DNA from: a virus
Length of the DNA stretch: 39,221 bases
Strand: one strand, 5' to 3'
IMG/VR virus record: IMGVR_UViG_3300020122_000125
Location: 1-39,221 of that record
In this document: positions 6,326 through 39,221 of the stretch, piece after piece
Position numbering within the stretch: position 1 is the first letter of the stretch
How the letters are laid out: the number at the start of each line of letters is the position of its first letter
Notes under the pieces: model-generated
The model's database searches: none
What the model saw: the letters and a program-made list of their open reading frames with translations, nothing else
Told to the model about the DNA's origin: nothing
Made by a program: the position numbers and the translations under genes

Positions 6326-6892
6326 ATGGCCATGAAATATTCACCAGAACAATTGCCCGGTGAGTTATTCTATCGTGGCTATCTTAATGAATCCGAAGCA
6401 TATTTTCAAATTCAATATAATCATTACCAAAATTGGCGCATGAACTTAGGCTTGCCAATGACTGATATAGACGCAGTCATTAGTGATGGTCATTTAGAGA
6501 GTTTTAATGCTATGAGAAACATTGAGTATATGAAAATTGCCGGAAAGTGTATTCCCTACGCCATCTTAGAAATGAAGCATTTCAGGACGCCTGATATGGT
6601 TATTACTACCATTTTAGATACCTCCACTCCCAATGGCGAAGTGGCCAACTTGGCAGGACTACCCTTCTTCGTGGTCAAATACTTCCCAGCTCAAGAGAAT
6701 AACAATCGTTGGGAGTTCAGTGTGTATCCGGTCAATGACCATGCCAAACAAATTCTTAAATTCTCCCAGCACATGAGCGAGCGAAGATTCACCCAGTTCA
6801 TGTATCAAGATTTGCGCAAACAGACTGTGCCCGAGAATTTGTTGGAGAATACCTGCCAACAGAAGAACAGTAGTTTATTCTCTCCATTGTGA
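6326..6892 (+). CDS. Possible PD-(D/E)XK-type nuclease, last gene of the late strand
   Basis: Encodes 188 residues. Residues 43-53 (LPMTDIDAVIS) and 78-85 (YAILEMKH) give an Asp-x-Asp on a predicted strand, then about 30 residues, then a strand with Glu82-x-Lys84. This is the layout of the PD-(D/E)XK nuclease core. A later strand pair (PFFVVKYF, WEFSVYPVN) is compatible with that fold. I do not recognise a specific family, so the assignment is a motif-level inference. The start ATG at 6326 lies one base after the upstream stop; ATG at 6332 is an alternative. A junction-resolving or host-DNA-degrading role would be possible. Confidence 0.45.
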   Translation: MAMKYSPEQLPGELFYRGYLNESEAYFQIQYNHYQNWRMNLGLPMTDIDAVISDGHLESFNAMRNIEYMKIAGKCIPYAILEMKHFRTPDMVITTILDTSTPNGEVANLAGLPFFVVKYFPAQENNNRWEFSVYPVNDHAKQILKFSQHMSERRFTQFMYQDLRKQTVPENLLENTCQQKNSSLFSPL

Positions 6893-6952
6893 GGTATATA
6901 GTTAGGTGGTATTTAATCGACTACTTAGAAGCTATTTCATAGCTTCGCCCAT

Positions 6953-7037
6953 GGGGCATTCTGATACAGAAGTCACGCCTCCCAATTGAGAAATCAGTTG
7001 AGAGGCAGCCCGCTCTCAAACAGCGGATGCTCCACCA
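6953..7037 (+). ncRNA. tRNA-like cloverleaf with 3' CCA but no normal anticodon arm
   Basis: GGGGCAT (6953-6959) pairs with ATGCTCC (7027-7033) as a 7-bp acceptor stem with one G-U pair. It is followed directly by A and CCA (7034-7037). CCGCT (7010-7014) and AGCGG (7022-7026) form a 5-bp stem with the 7-base loop CTCAAAC, close to the T-loop consensus TTCRANY. Where D and anticodon arms would be there are a short hairpin (TTCTG/CAGAA or TGA/TCA) and one long stem, 6977-6988 with 6995-7006, with a single mismatch and the 6-base loop AGAAAT. No 5-bp stem with a 7-base anticodon loop can be drawn. It could be a decayed tRNA or a tRNA mimic. Confidence 0.4.
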
Positions 7038-7099
7038 GAGAGTGATCAACTTTAGACCTTCGAAAACTTGCTGTTGGGTTTGATCAAACAACAGATTAT

Positions 7100-7185
7100 C
7101 GTGAATGATGGGCTCGCTGGATGAGCCAGTTGTCTGTAAAACAACCGCCTTTGTGCTACCTGTTCGACTCAGGCTTTCACGACCA
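7100..7185 (+). tRNA. Probable tRNA-Tyr (anticodon GTA) with encoded CCA
   Basis: CGTGAA at the 5' end pairs with TTCACG before the discriminator A and CCA (7182-7185). The D arm is GGCTC/GAGCC with loop GCTGGAT, which carries the GG pair. The anticodon arm is GTTGT/ACAAC around CTGTAAA (7134-7140), identical to the usual bacterial tRNA-Tyr loop, with anticodon GTA at 7136-7138. A 12-base variable region follows, as expected for a class II tRNA. The T arm is CCTG/CAGG around TTCGACT, a perfect T-loop. Oddities: four bases instead of two between acceptor and D stem, and mismatches at the last acceptor pair and first T-stem pair. Confidence 0.65.
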
Positions 7186-7270
7186 GATACCGAGTGCGGT
7201 GTCATTGTATTTCTTGAACAGAACTACAAAGCTTGGCGAGTCTAAGCAACGCCTGAATCTTAGAACGAAA

Positions 7271-7304
7271 AAACCCCGGATAGCCTAAAAACTATCCGGG
7301 GTTT
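7271..7304. terminator. Strong rho-independent terminator between converging operons
   Basis: AAACCCCGGATAG (7271-7283) and CTATCCGGGGTTT (7292-7304) form a perfect 13-bp GC-rich stem with the 8-base loop CCTAAAAA. On the minus strand the stem is followed by TTT, giving six consecutive U including the stem end. On the plus strand it is followed by GATCTTTTA. It can stop the minus-strand early operon and probably also the late transcript. Confidence 0.9.
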
Positions 7305-7430
7305 GATCTTTTATGTGTCCCAGCGAGCCCCCGCAGGCTAACTGAGACTCTGAATGATAACGATGAACAAATGTCTCAAGAAGGTAAAGGCGTCATCACC
7401 CAGAGCGAATCCGTTGGGAGAAACCAACAC

Positions 7431-17301: not shown

Positions 17302-19458
17302 ATGGTTACTTTTAAAACACTTGACTCCAAAAACTCAGCCTTCAACCCAGGACTATTACAGCGCCTCCATGTTCTGTATAAAGGTGGATATGATGTTTGG
17401 AACAATGCAGACCTATTTCTACACCAATTAGCATCTGAAACCACCGCTTCATTCGAAGATCGTAAGCAATGTGCGGCCTATCTACCATTGATGTCTGATA
17501 CCATCGATTACTATGCAGCTATGTTATTCTCTGGCGAAATGTCAGTGACCGAAGCTGCCGATGCTGATGATGAAGGCACTTTGGGCGATGAAGCAGATGA
17601 TGAATCTGTGTATAAACTATTCTTGGCTTGTGCTAATCTAAGAGGTAATTCATTAGAAGAAGTAATGCGCCATACCACTACTGACGCCCTAATGTATGGT
17701 TATGCTTTTGTGGGAGTTGATTTCCCCCGTTCTGATGAATTGCCAACCACTCTATTGGAAGAAGAAGTTCTTCAAGTAGCTCGCCCTTACTTATGTGATA
17801 TTGATCCAGATTGTGTTATTAATTGGTCATGTAATGAGGCCGATAAGTTCAATTGGGTAGTTATTAAGTCAGACAATGTAGTTCAGCCTGATCCATTGCA
17901 ACCTCCAATGCACCAAGTAGAGTTCAAGATTTGGAAGATGGAGAATGGATTTGCTAAATGGCAACTATACCAAACTGACCTATTGAAGATGGGTAAGCAG
18001 CCAAATCCAAATGACGATGTAGCATTGGTAGAAGAGGGAACCACTTCATTCAAAGAGATTCCAGTTCTTAAGCTATGTTTGCCAACTGGATTATCATTAG
18101 GGCCAAAGATTGCTCCAATGTGTGAAAATATCTTCCAAAGAACTTCTATTCTATTCAATGGTGAAAACAAATCACTCAATGCAATGAGAGTTGTATTTCT
18201 TGGAGACGAATCTAATGCTCCAGGTGGGCCAACTCCAGCTATGGTTCAAGAGAATCCATTTCGTCATTTGACATTGCAGACTGATTGGGAATCTAAGGGA
18301 TTTGGTGTGTTAGGCGCTAATGACAAAATGGATATCATTGAATCCCAAGGCCACGCCTTTAAGATTGTTGATGAACAGATTGATCGTCAGATTGAGAAGG
18401 TTAAAGAGACCGTTCATCAGATGTCTAATACTGCTGCCGCTTCTAAGGGTTCTAAGAGCCAAGGTCGTTCGGCTGCTGCTCAACAAGAATCAAGACATGC
18501 CACTGAGATTCTATTAACGGCTTATGGTAATATCGTTAGAGATTACATCAAATCTATTATGAATTGTATCTCTACAGCTCGTAATGAATCAATTGTATGG
18601 ACAGTTGATGGATTTGAGAACTTCACTATTATGGATCGCTCTCAATTGACTGAAGAGGCTAAGAATTTCCCTCAGGTTATTCAGGATAGCAAAAGTCAGA
18701 CATTCAGTAGGCTCTATACTGAGAAGTTCTATTTGGGATTGTTAGATGGCGCTTCTCATGAAGAAGCTAAGCAGATTCGTCGTGAGATCTTGGACGCTAT
18801 CGACAAAGCAGCGATGGCACCAGATATGCAGGGAGCAACAGCCGTGCCCCAGCTCAATCAGGCAGCTAAACCCGATTCTGGTCAATCTGATGAAACTATG
18901 GCCCTTGGCCCAGCAGGACAACCTCTATTGCCAGAAGGTTCTCATCTACAAACTGGCGAACACATTGATCCACAAGAAGTATTTGATCATTTAGCACAAG
19001 ACTATAATGAGAAAGACATTGATTGGGTATTGCATATTCCATGGATTGGCCCAGTAGAAGTTCCACTTAACTCAATTGATTTCTCCAATAAAGATAACTG
19101 GCAAGCTACTCAAGATGAAGATCATGTAGAGATGTTTGCTGATAAGATGTCTAATGACAACATGACTAAGCCAATTGTATTGGTTAATGCGCCAGCTCAG
19201 GACGGCAAGATGATGATTGTCGATGGACATCATAGGGCATTGGCCGCATTGCAAAATGGACAGCCAGTTCCAGCTTATGTTGGACAGGTAGGTCGTTTGC
19301 AAGGCCCATGGAGCAAACTGCATTCCAAGCAAGTTGGCAAGAAACAAGGTTCTGGTTTATTGGCCAGTTCTCAGCAAGTTAATGCCACTTCACTTCAGAA
19401 AGACATCTCCAATCAGGTCAATCAGTCTGAAAGGGCTAAGGGCGGAAAGACAAAGTAA
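17302..19458 (+). CDS. Portal protein with C-terminal ParB/sulfiredoxin-like domain
   Basis: Encodes 718 residues, long for a portal. Residues 1-520 carry the portal-type sequence (LLQRLHVLYKGGYDVWNN near the start, a long helix around 360-390, Ala-Ser-rich segment near 375-400) and follow the terminase as expected; the family may be the DUF4055 type. Residues 587-665 form a separate domain: VPLNSIDF (587-594), EHVEMFADKM-like helix, KPIVLVNA, and DGHHRALAALQNGQPVPAYV (641-660). The DG-HR-A---G-PVPA pattern is the ParB/Srx nuclease-like signature. A Gln/Ala-rich linker joins the two, and a basic, Gln-rich tail ends the protein. Confidence 0.85.
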   Translation: MVTFKTLDSKNSAFNPGLLQRLHVLYKGGYDVWNNADLFLHQLASETTASFEDRKQCAAYLPLMSDTIDYYAAMLFSGEMSVTEAADADDEGTLGDEADDESVYKLFLACANLRGNSLEEVMRHTTTDALMYGYAFVGVDFPRSDELPTTLLEEEVLQVARPYLCDIDPDCVINWSCNEADKFNWVVIKSDNVVQPDPLQPPMHQVEFKIWKMENGFAKWQLYQTDLLKMGKQPNPNDDVALVEEGTTSFKEIPVLKLCLPTGLSLGPKIAPMCENIFQRTSILFNGENKSLNAMRVVFLGDESNAPGGPTPAMVQENPFRHLTLQTDWESKGFGVLGANDKMDIIESQGHAFKIVDEQIDRQIEKVKETVHQMSNTAAASKGSKSQGRSAAAQQESRHATEILLTAYGNIVRDYIKSIMNCISTARNESIVWTVDGFENFTIMDRSQLTEEAKNFPQVIQDSKSQTFSRLYTEKFYLGLLDGASHEEAKQIRREILDAIDKAAMAPDMQGATAVPQLNQAAKPDSGQSDETMALGPAGQPLLPEGSHLQTGEHIDPQEVFDHLAQDYNEKDIDWVLHIPWIGPVEVPLNSIDFSNKDNWQATQDEDHVEMFADKMSNDNMTKPIVLVNAPAQDGKMMIVDGHHRALAALQNGQPVPAYVGQVGRLQGPWSKLHSKQVGKKQGSGLLASSQQVNATSLQKDISNQVNQSERAKGGKTK

Positions 19459-23833: not shown

Positions 23834-24850
23834 ATGGTATTAGGCCAAGACCAAAATTTCTCATTTGACTCCAATGTATATCCGCCACAAACTGGCACTG
23901 GAAATACAACCCTCAAAGACACCGATATTGTCAGCCAAAAAATTCTCGAATTCTTCCGAGGTATTCTGCAAACTAATATGTCGTCTCGCTGGAATGAAGC
24001 GTGCTTGTCCTGCGGACTGGTCAATAGCAAACTGCAGAATATGAAAGATGGATACACTGTTGGTGATGCTCTGTGCTTCCCACTACCATCTACTCTACAA
24101 CAAACTGACTATCACTTCCCAATTCTCTCCGTTTATAGAGAAAAAGAGCAATATCGCCAGCTTAGCACCAATCACATCGTCATTGAGAGTGATTTTATCA
24201 TCAACTGGGTACTTCCACCGCTTGCCAATGTCAATCAGCGCAACACGCTGTATCCATTTTTGCAAGAAGTATCTAAGACTTTGCTCTTCTATACTTTCCA
24301 GGGCAGCGACCCTAAATACAACCATGGTGAATTGGTTTGGAAAGAGGCTGGATTTGCCTTTGCCTTAATGGAAGGCGCCGAATATGGCTCTTTCTTAGGT
24401 CAAGATGGTAAAACAGAGTTCCCAAGTGTGCAAATCAAGTTCAAGGTATTTGAACGAGATCAATTCGTTAGAGATAACTTCGAATCACTGACTGGTTTCG
24501 ATGGATACATTGACGAGTTGGATGGGTATAACATTAATGACCCAATTGTGGATTTCATTGAGTTTCACACCAATCCAGGGCTTAGAGTTAGTTCTTTCTC
24601 ACCAAATTCTGGGCCATTATCGGGCAATACTCTGGTAGTTATATACGGCACTGGTTTTGAGGCGGCTGGACTATCACAACAATCTCAAGTTACCCTTGCT
24701 GGAAATGCAGTATTGAGGTTTTTGGTGAAATCTGATACAGTAATGATTGTCATTACGGGATATGCGCCTTCCGGGACTTCAGGCCCAGTGGTAATTACCG
24801 ATCAATATGGTAATGTTGCAACATCTACTCAGAATTTCACATATAGTTAA
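23834..24850 (+). CDS. Tail terminator-like protein with C-terminal IPT/TIG domain
   Basis: Encodes 338 residues. Residues 1-245 are not clearly assigned but lie where the tail terminator should be, directly before the sheath. Residues 250-338 form an Ig-like IPT/TIG domain: VSSFSPNSGPLSGNTLVVIY, then GTGFEAAGLS, VTLAGNAV, and a closing GPVVITDQYGNVATSTQNF. Such Ig-like domains decorate phage virions and are thought to bind host surfaces or carbohydrates weakly. An Ig domain on a neck protein is less usual than on capsid or tube proteins. Confidence 0.65.
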   Translation: MVLGQDQNFSFDSNVYPPQTGTGNTTLKDTDIVSQKILEFFRGILQTNMSSRWNEACLSCGLVNSKLQNMKDGYTVGDALCFPLPSTLQQTDYHFPILSVYREKEQYRQLSTNHIVIESDFIINWVLPPLANVNQRNTLYPFLQEVSKTLLFYTFQGSDPKYNHGELVWKEAGFAFALMEGAEYGSFLGQDGKTEFPSVQIKFKVFERDQFVRDNFESLTGFDGYIDELDGYNINDPIVDFIEFHTNPGLRVSSFSPNSGPLSGNTLVVIYGTGFEAAGLSQQSQVTLAGNAVLRFLVKSDTVMIVITGYAPSGTSGPVVITDQYGNVATSTQNFTYS

Positions 24851-38303: not shown

Positions 38304-39221
38304 ATGACTTTTTCAAAACCATACCCAGGAACATTCGCTTATGAGGGAACTATCCCATCTCAAGCAATGAACTACATCAATGACAATTTTACCCATATTC
38401 TTGATAAAACTGGAGATAACGCCACCAATGGTGGAGGTATCTCTGGTCGAGTAGATGTATTGAGTGGAGCTAATCTACAAATCCAGTCAGGTGGAGTGAT
38501 TACTCTAAATGGTGGAACTATCAATTATAGTTCTGGCACTTTAGTCTTCAATGGTTCATCTGCCATTGCCTTTAATGATACTTCTGGTTTTACATTTAAC
38601 GGTTCTGGTAATGCTATCTTTGGTTCATCTGCCAGTTTATTGATGGCCGGAACTCTAAACATTACTTCTGGCGCTACACTGGGTATCAACTCCGGTGGCA
38701 CTATGCATGTCAAAAGTGGAGCTACTGCCACGGTAGATAACGGTGGTCATTTAGCTATTGCTGGAGGCGGTGAAATCGCGGTAGCCTCGGGTGGTCAAGT
38801 CAATCTCAATGCGGGTTCGTTCTTAAACCTAACCAGTCAAACTACGGTTATTACTGGAAGTTTGGTAGAAGTCACTGGAGCCAGCACGGTCATTTTCAAC
38901 AACAGCGGTGCCAGCTTCTTGACCATTGGAACTGGTAATACTTTCAATGTCCATGGAACTCACAAAACTGATGTATGGCCATCTTGGAACTCTCCAATTA
39001 CCAGACAGGTTATTGAATCAACTACTTCCGGTATTGCTGCTTCTGGCACTTGGGGCGGTGGTTTGCAGTTCGTTTATGATACTGGCGTTGGTGGAGTCTG
39101 GGTAATGCAACTACAGAGAAGCCACAACAAAGCAACTCTTAACCAAATCTTCGTTGGACTTTCTGTTGGAGGCAGCCACTCTGCTGTTCCAGCTAACAGA
39201 CCATCTCTTTCTTTGATTAGA
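38304..39221 (+). CDS. Tail fibre protein, N-terminal part (continues at base 1)
   Basis: Start of a 396-residue protein that wraps through the circle junction to 400; AAAGGT lies upstream of ATG 38304. The N-terminus (FSKPYPGTFAYEGTIPSQAM, then NYINDNFTHILDKTGDNATN) is typical of fibre attachment domains. It is followed by repeated beta-solenoid strands with Gly-Ser turns (TLNITSGATLGINSGGTM, ATVDNGGHLAIAGGGEIAVA). The shaft ends near 39000, then a distinct C-terminal domain begins. The last 127 bases here duplicate bases 1-127. Confidence 0.8.
   Translation, partial: MTFSKPYPGTFAYEGTIPSQAMNYINDNFTHILDKTGDNATNGGGISGRVDVLSGANLQIQSGGVITLNGGTINYSSGTLVFNGSSAIAFNDTSGFTFNGSGNAIFGSSASLLMAGTLNITSGATLGINSGGTMHVKSGATATVDNGGHLAIAGGGEIAVASGGQVNLNAGSFLNLTSQTTVITGSLVEVTGASTVIFNNSGASFLTIGTGNTFNVHGTHKTDVWPSWNSPITRQVIESTTSGIAASGTWGGGLQFVYDTGVGGVWVMQLQRSHNKATLNQIFVGLSVGGSHSAVPANRPSLSLIR
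39095..39221. repeat. Right copy of 127-bp terminal direct repeat
   Basis: Identical to 1-127; see the left copy. The overlap shows that the sequence is circular. Confidence 0.97.

Follow-up and report, generated by a model that had tools for sequence, protein, structure and literature searches.

The window, by which we mean the whole analysed stretch of 39,221 nucleotides (IMG/VR virus record IMGVR_UViG_3300020122_000125), belongs to a contractile-tailed phage, with terminase, portal, sheath and baseplate genes. Bases 1–127 and 39095–39221 are identical, and with these 127-bp ends the window probably represents the whole genome of the phage. One open reading frame of 718 residues (17302–19458, forward strand) matches a portal family at residues 20–255 and ParB-like nuclease families at residues 587–652, and is apparently a portal/ParB-like nuclease fusion. 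A scan of the open reading frames, which did not include every small one, found no integrase, synthetase or SmpB-like protein. The RNA described here follows the last gene of a block of rightward genes. This gene (6326–6892, forward strand) encodes a protein of 188 amino acids that has no family match and is found only in the phages of this study. The protein contains an invariant E82-x-K84 with D47/D49, which faintly suggests a PD-(D/E)xK nuclease; its AlphaFold model was poor (pLDDT 63) and gave no usable match in Foldseek. Searching with the same protein identified contigs of two further phages in other metagenomes, L003 (protein 96% identical) and L004 (56%), and in both the RNA again follows this gene. 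L003 is a relative whose contig is rotated.

Between the gene and the RNA, a small hairpin is located in the window (6928–6946, forward strand). It aligns in the window and L003 only and is paired with different sequences in the two, as read directly (GAAGCTAT/ATAGCTTC in the window, GAGGTTCC/GGGGCCTC in L003). This is followed by the RNA itself (6953–7037, forward strand), a tRNA-Tyr gene and a bidirectional intrinsic terminator (7271–7304), which lies downstream of both RNA genes. The leftward genes beyond the RNA run towards it. A second conserved structured element (7317–7405, reverse strand), with equivalents in L003 and L004, lies where the leftward transcript has its 3' end; it consists of a pair of neighbouring hairpins (CGCUCU...AGAGUCUC...GGGACACAU) that precede the terminator. 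Five of its pairs are changed on both sides over the three phages, and it has no significant match in Rfam.

The RNA is 85 nucleotides long, with the CCA end encoded, and scores 99.5 bits with the covariance model. Its folding energy is -35.7 kcal/mol, compared with a mean of -20.6 kcal/mol (s.d. 3.1) for shuffled sequences (z -4.9), and none of 200 shuffles equalled it. Four elements meet at a junction in the single-sequence fold: the acceptor stem, the T arm, the long hairpin at the centre and a short one in the D region. The 7-bp acceptor is formed by GGGGCAT (6953–6959, with G3 at 6955) and ATGCTCC (7027–7033, with U70 at 7031), the 3' strand continuing with A73 and CCA (7034–7037). The T arm (7010–7026) has a stem of 5 bp, CCGCT (7010–7014) with AGCGG (7022–7026), and a seven-nucleotide loop, CUCAAAC. 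The acceptor with its ACCA end and the T arm had both been proposed in an earlier, sequence-only reading of this DNA, and they are present as it described them. For the central hairpin (6977–7006) that reading gave 12 positions and a six-base loop; the long hairpin stands, but it has 13 positions (12 pairs and one C·A mismatch) and is closed by a GAAA tetraloop. Where a functional tRNA has an anticodon arm with a seven-nucleotide loop, the RNA has this hairpin of 12 to 14 pairs. Without an anticodon loop it cannot decode, and without an anticodon arm it is not a tRNA.

A D arm, not mentioned in the sequence-only reading, can be formed at the canonical tRNA position (6962–6975, UGAU-ACAGAA-GUCA, stem strands 6962–6965 and 6972–6975). 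Its UGA/UCA pairs are the same in all three phages, and U13·G20 forms a fourth pair in the constrained fold. In the window and L003 a UCUG/CAGA hairpin is slightly more favourable than the D arm (-35.7 versus -35.2 kcal/mol), while in L004 the minimum-energy fold includes the D arm. All three phages have U8, A14 and A21, one G is kept in the D loop, and U55, C56 and A59 are kept in the T loop, L004 included. These are positions that usually build the tRNA core and elbow. A strict descriptor, requiring a 7-bp acceptor, a 5-bp T stem, a seven-nucleotide T loop, CCA and a central stem no shorter than 10 bp, matches only 6953–7037 within the window; in about 1.09 Mb of other loci it finds the homologues and one unrelated match. 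ARAGORN, run on the window, calls the tRNA-Tyr gene and not the RNA. In Rfam (E≤10) the RNA has no match to the tRNA family, a weak test, since the adjoining tRNA-Tyr is also missed.

The RNAs of the window and L003 are identical except for the distal part of the central hairpin, which in L003 has a changed sequence with two additional nucleotides, is still paired and forms 14 unbroken pairs. In L004 the acceptor (GGGCTGG/CCAGTCC) and the T stem (CTCCA/TGGAG) are both unlike those of the window, the central stem is 11 bp long with an insert of about 50 nucleotides, and the RNA scores 75.4 bits with the covariance model. Covariation in homologues, which the sequence-only reading had named as a test of its proposal, is evident in the alignment of the three sequences: of 81 pair cells, 79 hold standard pairs, and both sides have changed in 12 of the 27 pairs. 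These include acceptor pairs 4–7, three of the five T-stem pairs (in L004) and five of the 12 modelled pairs of the central hairpin, which thus remains paired in both relatives despite different sequence. When partner columns are slid by one to three positions, pairing falls to 31–46% and double changes to 0–1; the three sequences are only two independent lineages, and shuffle counts of this kind are not readable as probabilities. MAFFT misaligned the L004 hairpin; in the model alignment used, the L004 loop was shortened and contains one filler base, the counted pairs being real L004 letters. Compensatory change supports every helix save the invariant D stem.

With compensatory changes across three phages, the RNA is neither a product of decay nor of chance. 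The sequence-only reading had offered a tRNA mimic or a decayed tRNA; the former is supported by a fold kept through compensatory changes in the distant relative L004, while the latter does not agree with a sequence that turns over and yet retains all its helices, G3:U70 and the A73-CCA end. A decayed tRNA-Ala gene, or an attachment site derived from one, would account for the match of the acceptor to E. coli tRNA-Ala at GGGGC/GCTCCACCA, and many phages do have the 3' end of a tRNA or tmRNA at attP, next to an integrase. Covariation throughout the molecule largely refutes this explanation, however, and with no integrase among the open reading frames scanned we regard it as extremely unlikely. 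Nor does any reading frame explain the conservation of the 6953–7037 region. An antisense open reading frame (6921–7205) was rejected as its cause: the frame shifts in L003 through the two-nucleotide indel in the hairpin, and the conservation is therefore not coding.

Searches of viral and genome collections gave no homologue beyond L003 and L004. The pattern TCTGATANNNNAGTCA..CCACCA occurs in 72 stretches of viral contigs, from which a pairing filter left the known homologues only. The pattern GGGNNNNTCTGATANNNNAGTCA gave 35 stretches, among which the covariance model R1 produced only weak additional scores (best 19.7 bits, E 0.03); these have several broken pairs and were taken as chance, as was an R1 match within the window (24725–24823, E 0.55). 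Searches with the tail sheath and terminase found the same phages, one of them as a copy 100% identical to that of the window but starting past the RNA, and some distant fragments that lack the RNA. The phage and plasmid collections, searched by DNA similarity, contained nothing relevant. The 188-residue protein and a neighbouring protein of 78 residues have no relatives in genome contigs and so point to no host or prophage.

G1:C72, G2:C71, G3:U70 and A73-CCA are the same in all three phages, while the remaining acceptor pairs differ. The three invariant pairs and A73 are the identity features for alanine, which the sequence-only reading had not noted, and charging with alanine has G3·U70 as its conserved determinant (PMC9976931). 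G3:U70 and A73 suggest that the host alanyl-tRNA synthetase charges the RNA, which is probably loaded with alanine and unable to read codons. Position -1 is a U in all three. Bacterial RNase P reads a 12-bp acceptor/T stack with RCCA, and the stack of 7 and 5 bp, the A73-CCA end and the U at -1 point to a 5' cut by the host enzyme. Compared with tRNA-Ala, the RNA shares the acceptor (GGGGC/GCTCC-ACCA), the position of the D arm and U8, A14, A21, U55 and C56, but it differs in having no anticodon arm, a variable region of three nucleotides and a T loop without T54. Taken together, the fold, its covariation and the alanine-type acceptor make it very probable that this is a real, non-decoding tRNA-like RNA of the alanine type.

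The position of the RNA would suit an element for processing or stability of the late mRNA: the tRNA shape would recruit RNase P and end-trimming enzymes and thereby give the tail/lysis transcript a defined 3' end, and the freed RNA would do nothing further. Each of the three phages has it after the last rightward gene and before a terminator, and in L004 it begins only 7 nucleotides past the stop codon, with its own terminator directly after it (L004 6745–6772). Cleavage alone should need neither the invariant G3:U70 nor a long hairpin, however, and the hairpin and the L004 insert would exceed the needs of a processing signal; we consider this explanation rather unlikely.

The tRNA-Tyr(GUA) gene is located at 7100–7185 (forward strand), the regular tRNA 62 bases on that the sequence-only reading had placed there, and at 6778–6863 in L003; it is absent from L004. 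Bacterial tRNA-Tyr normally has G1:C72; this one has C1:G72, a U·U mismatch at acceptor pair 7 and a T stem of 4 bp, and gives no match to the tRNA family of Rfam (E≤10). Its 5-bp D stem covaries with that of L003. As a counter-defence, phage tRNA-Tyr is known to act against retron-Eco7 (PMC11555353); the variable loop of tRNA-Tyr is cut by Septu (PMC13096335). The RNA adjoins this gene in two of the phages and might be a decoy or donor outside trans-translation, sequestering the alanyl-tRNA synthetase or EF-Tu, distracting a tRNA-targeting defence enzyme or giving alanine to a transferase. Such a role would account for the conserved charging features, but the phage showed no transferase, we found no known defence that acts on alanine acceptors, and L004 lacks the tRNA-Tyr; we consider it improbable.

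The closest functional parallel is the tRNA-like domain of tmRNA, likewise not raised by the sequence-only reading. tmRNA carries the same G3:U70 charging signal. Its tRNA-like domain has no anticodon stem-loop, SmpB filling that space (PMC4131195), and is alanylated (PMC4131195; PMC11915505). The phage RNA shares with the bacterial domain the 7-bp acceptor with G3:U70, A73-CCA, the T arm and a long helix replacing the anticodon arm. It differs in that the window and L003 have no messenger domain, only the closed hairpin, and in having a possible D stem, absent from tmRNA, and another D loop: UCUGAUAnnnnAGUCA here, as against the GGnTTCGA-like signature, without D stem, at the 5' ends of E. 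coli and phage tmRNAs. No tmRNA family of Rfam matches the RNA (E≤10), and model R1 matches neither real tmRNAs nor E. coli tRNA-Ala. With no tag domain in the window and L003, and no family match, D-loop signature or R1 match, the RNA cannot be filed as a tmRNA. In L004, the insert (L004 6600–6655) contains AAAACAUAGUGCACCAUGA, which resembles, perhaps by chance, a tmRNA resume context with Ala-Pro-stop after it. A miniature tmRNA with a two-codon tag could be read from it, AAAACAUAGU-GCA-CCA-UGA resembling the E. coli resume context AAAAAAUAGUC-GCA, and tmRNAs with tags of two amino acids have been reported (PMC11915505). However, the reported tags are Ala-Ala and not Ala-Pro, the doubtful frame occurs in one sequence only, the window and L003 having a tetraloop, and tmRNA models do not match, all of which makes a miniature tmRNA very unlikely.

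In plant RNA viruses, tRNA-like structures close the 3' ends of the genomes and are charged with Val, His or Tyr. The phage RNA is, like them, a viral tRNA mimic that should be aminoacylated, but its gene lies inside the genome of a DNA phage and it has alanine identity. The precedent is the tmRNA of mycobacteriophage DS6A, which is little more than a tRNA-like domain (PMC4131195; PMC11915505, citing Mao et al. 2009). Compared by its published description and not by sequence, it is likewise a phage RNA reduced to a tRNA-like domain, with no tag frame and an alanine-type acceptor expected; unlike it, the RNA described here has a D stem and a closed hairpin of 12–14 bp, while that of DS6A is described as a tmRNA domain. 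The RNA described here would work like a tmRNA consisting of the tRNA-like domain only, and may be of separate origin, for example from tRNA-Ala.

A DS6A-like molecule is reported to be a strong inhibitor of tmRNA whether or not it can be charged, perhaps because it titrates SmpB (PMC4131195), and this is why competition with trans-translation appears to be the most likely role. The late transcript would carry the RNA at its 3' end; host RNase P would cut the 5' end of the RNA, and the alanyl-tRNA synthetase of the host would load it with alanine, its extended hairpin blocking decoding. It would then act as a tmRNA tRNA-like domain without the messenger part and vie with the tmRNA of the host for stalled ribosomes, SmpB or EF-Tu, which would blunt or short-circuit trans-translation during late infection. 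We give this explanation as a whole, a processed, alanine-charged, non-decoding phage RNA that competes with tmRNA, a probability of roughly 0.5; the anti-trans-translation role by itself, drawn by analogy, is held tentatively. As inhibition of the DS6A kind needs no charging, titration alone leaves the conserved G3:U70 unexplained, which suggests that charging matters too. It is conceivable, if rather speculative, that the RNA is independent of tmRNA, perhaps derived from tRNA-Ala, and that in its alanine-charged form it enters or blocks stalled ribosomes instead of tmRNA, selection acting on the charge as well as on the shape; it would then be a natural RNA inhibitor or hijacker of trans-translation.

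The literature searched, which included few subscription papers, contains one other non-decoding tRNA-like RNA of a phage, the DS6A molecule. A second lineage, with no match to tmRNA, with covariation and with a conserved alanine pair, suggests that phages evolved alanine tRNA decoys more than once. Both ARAGORN and Rfam miss the RNA, and similar RNAs may therefore be common and unseen. It provides a concrete molecule of 85 nucleotides with which to ask whether phages attack ribosome rescue by means of RNA, and why the charging signal is kept.
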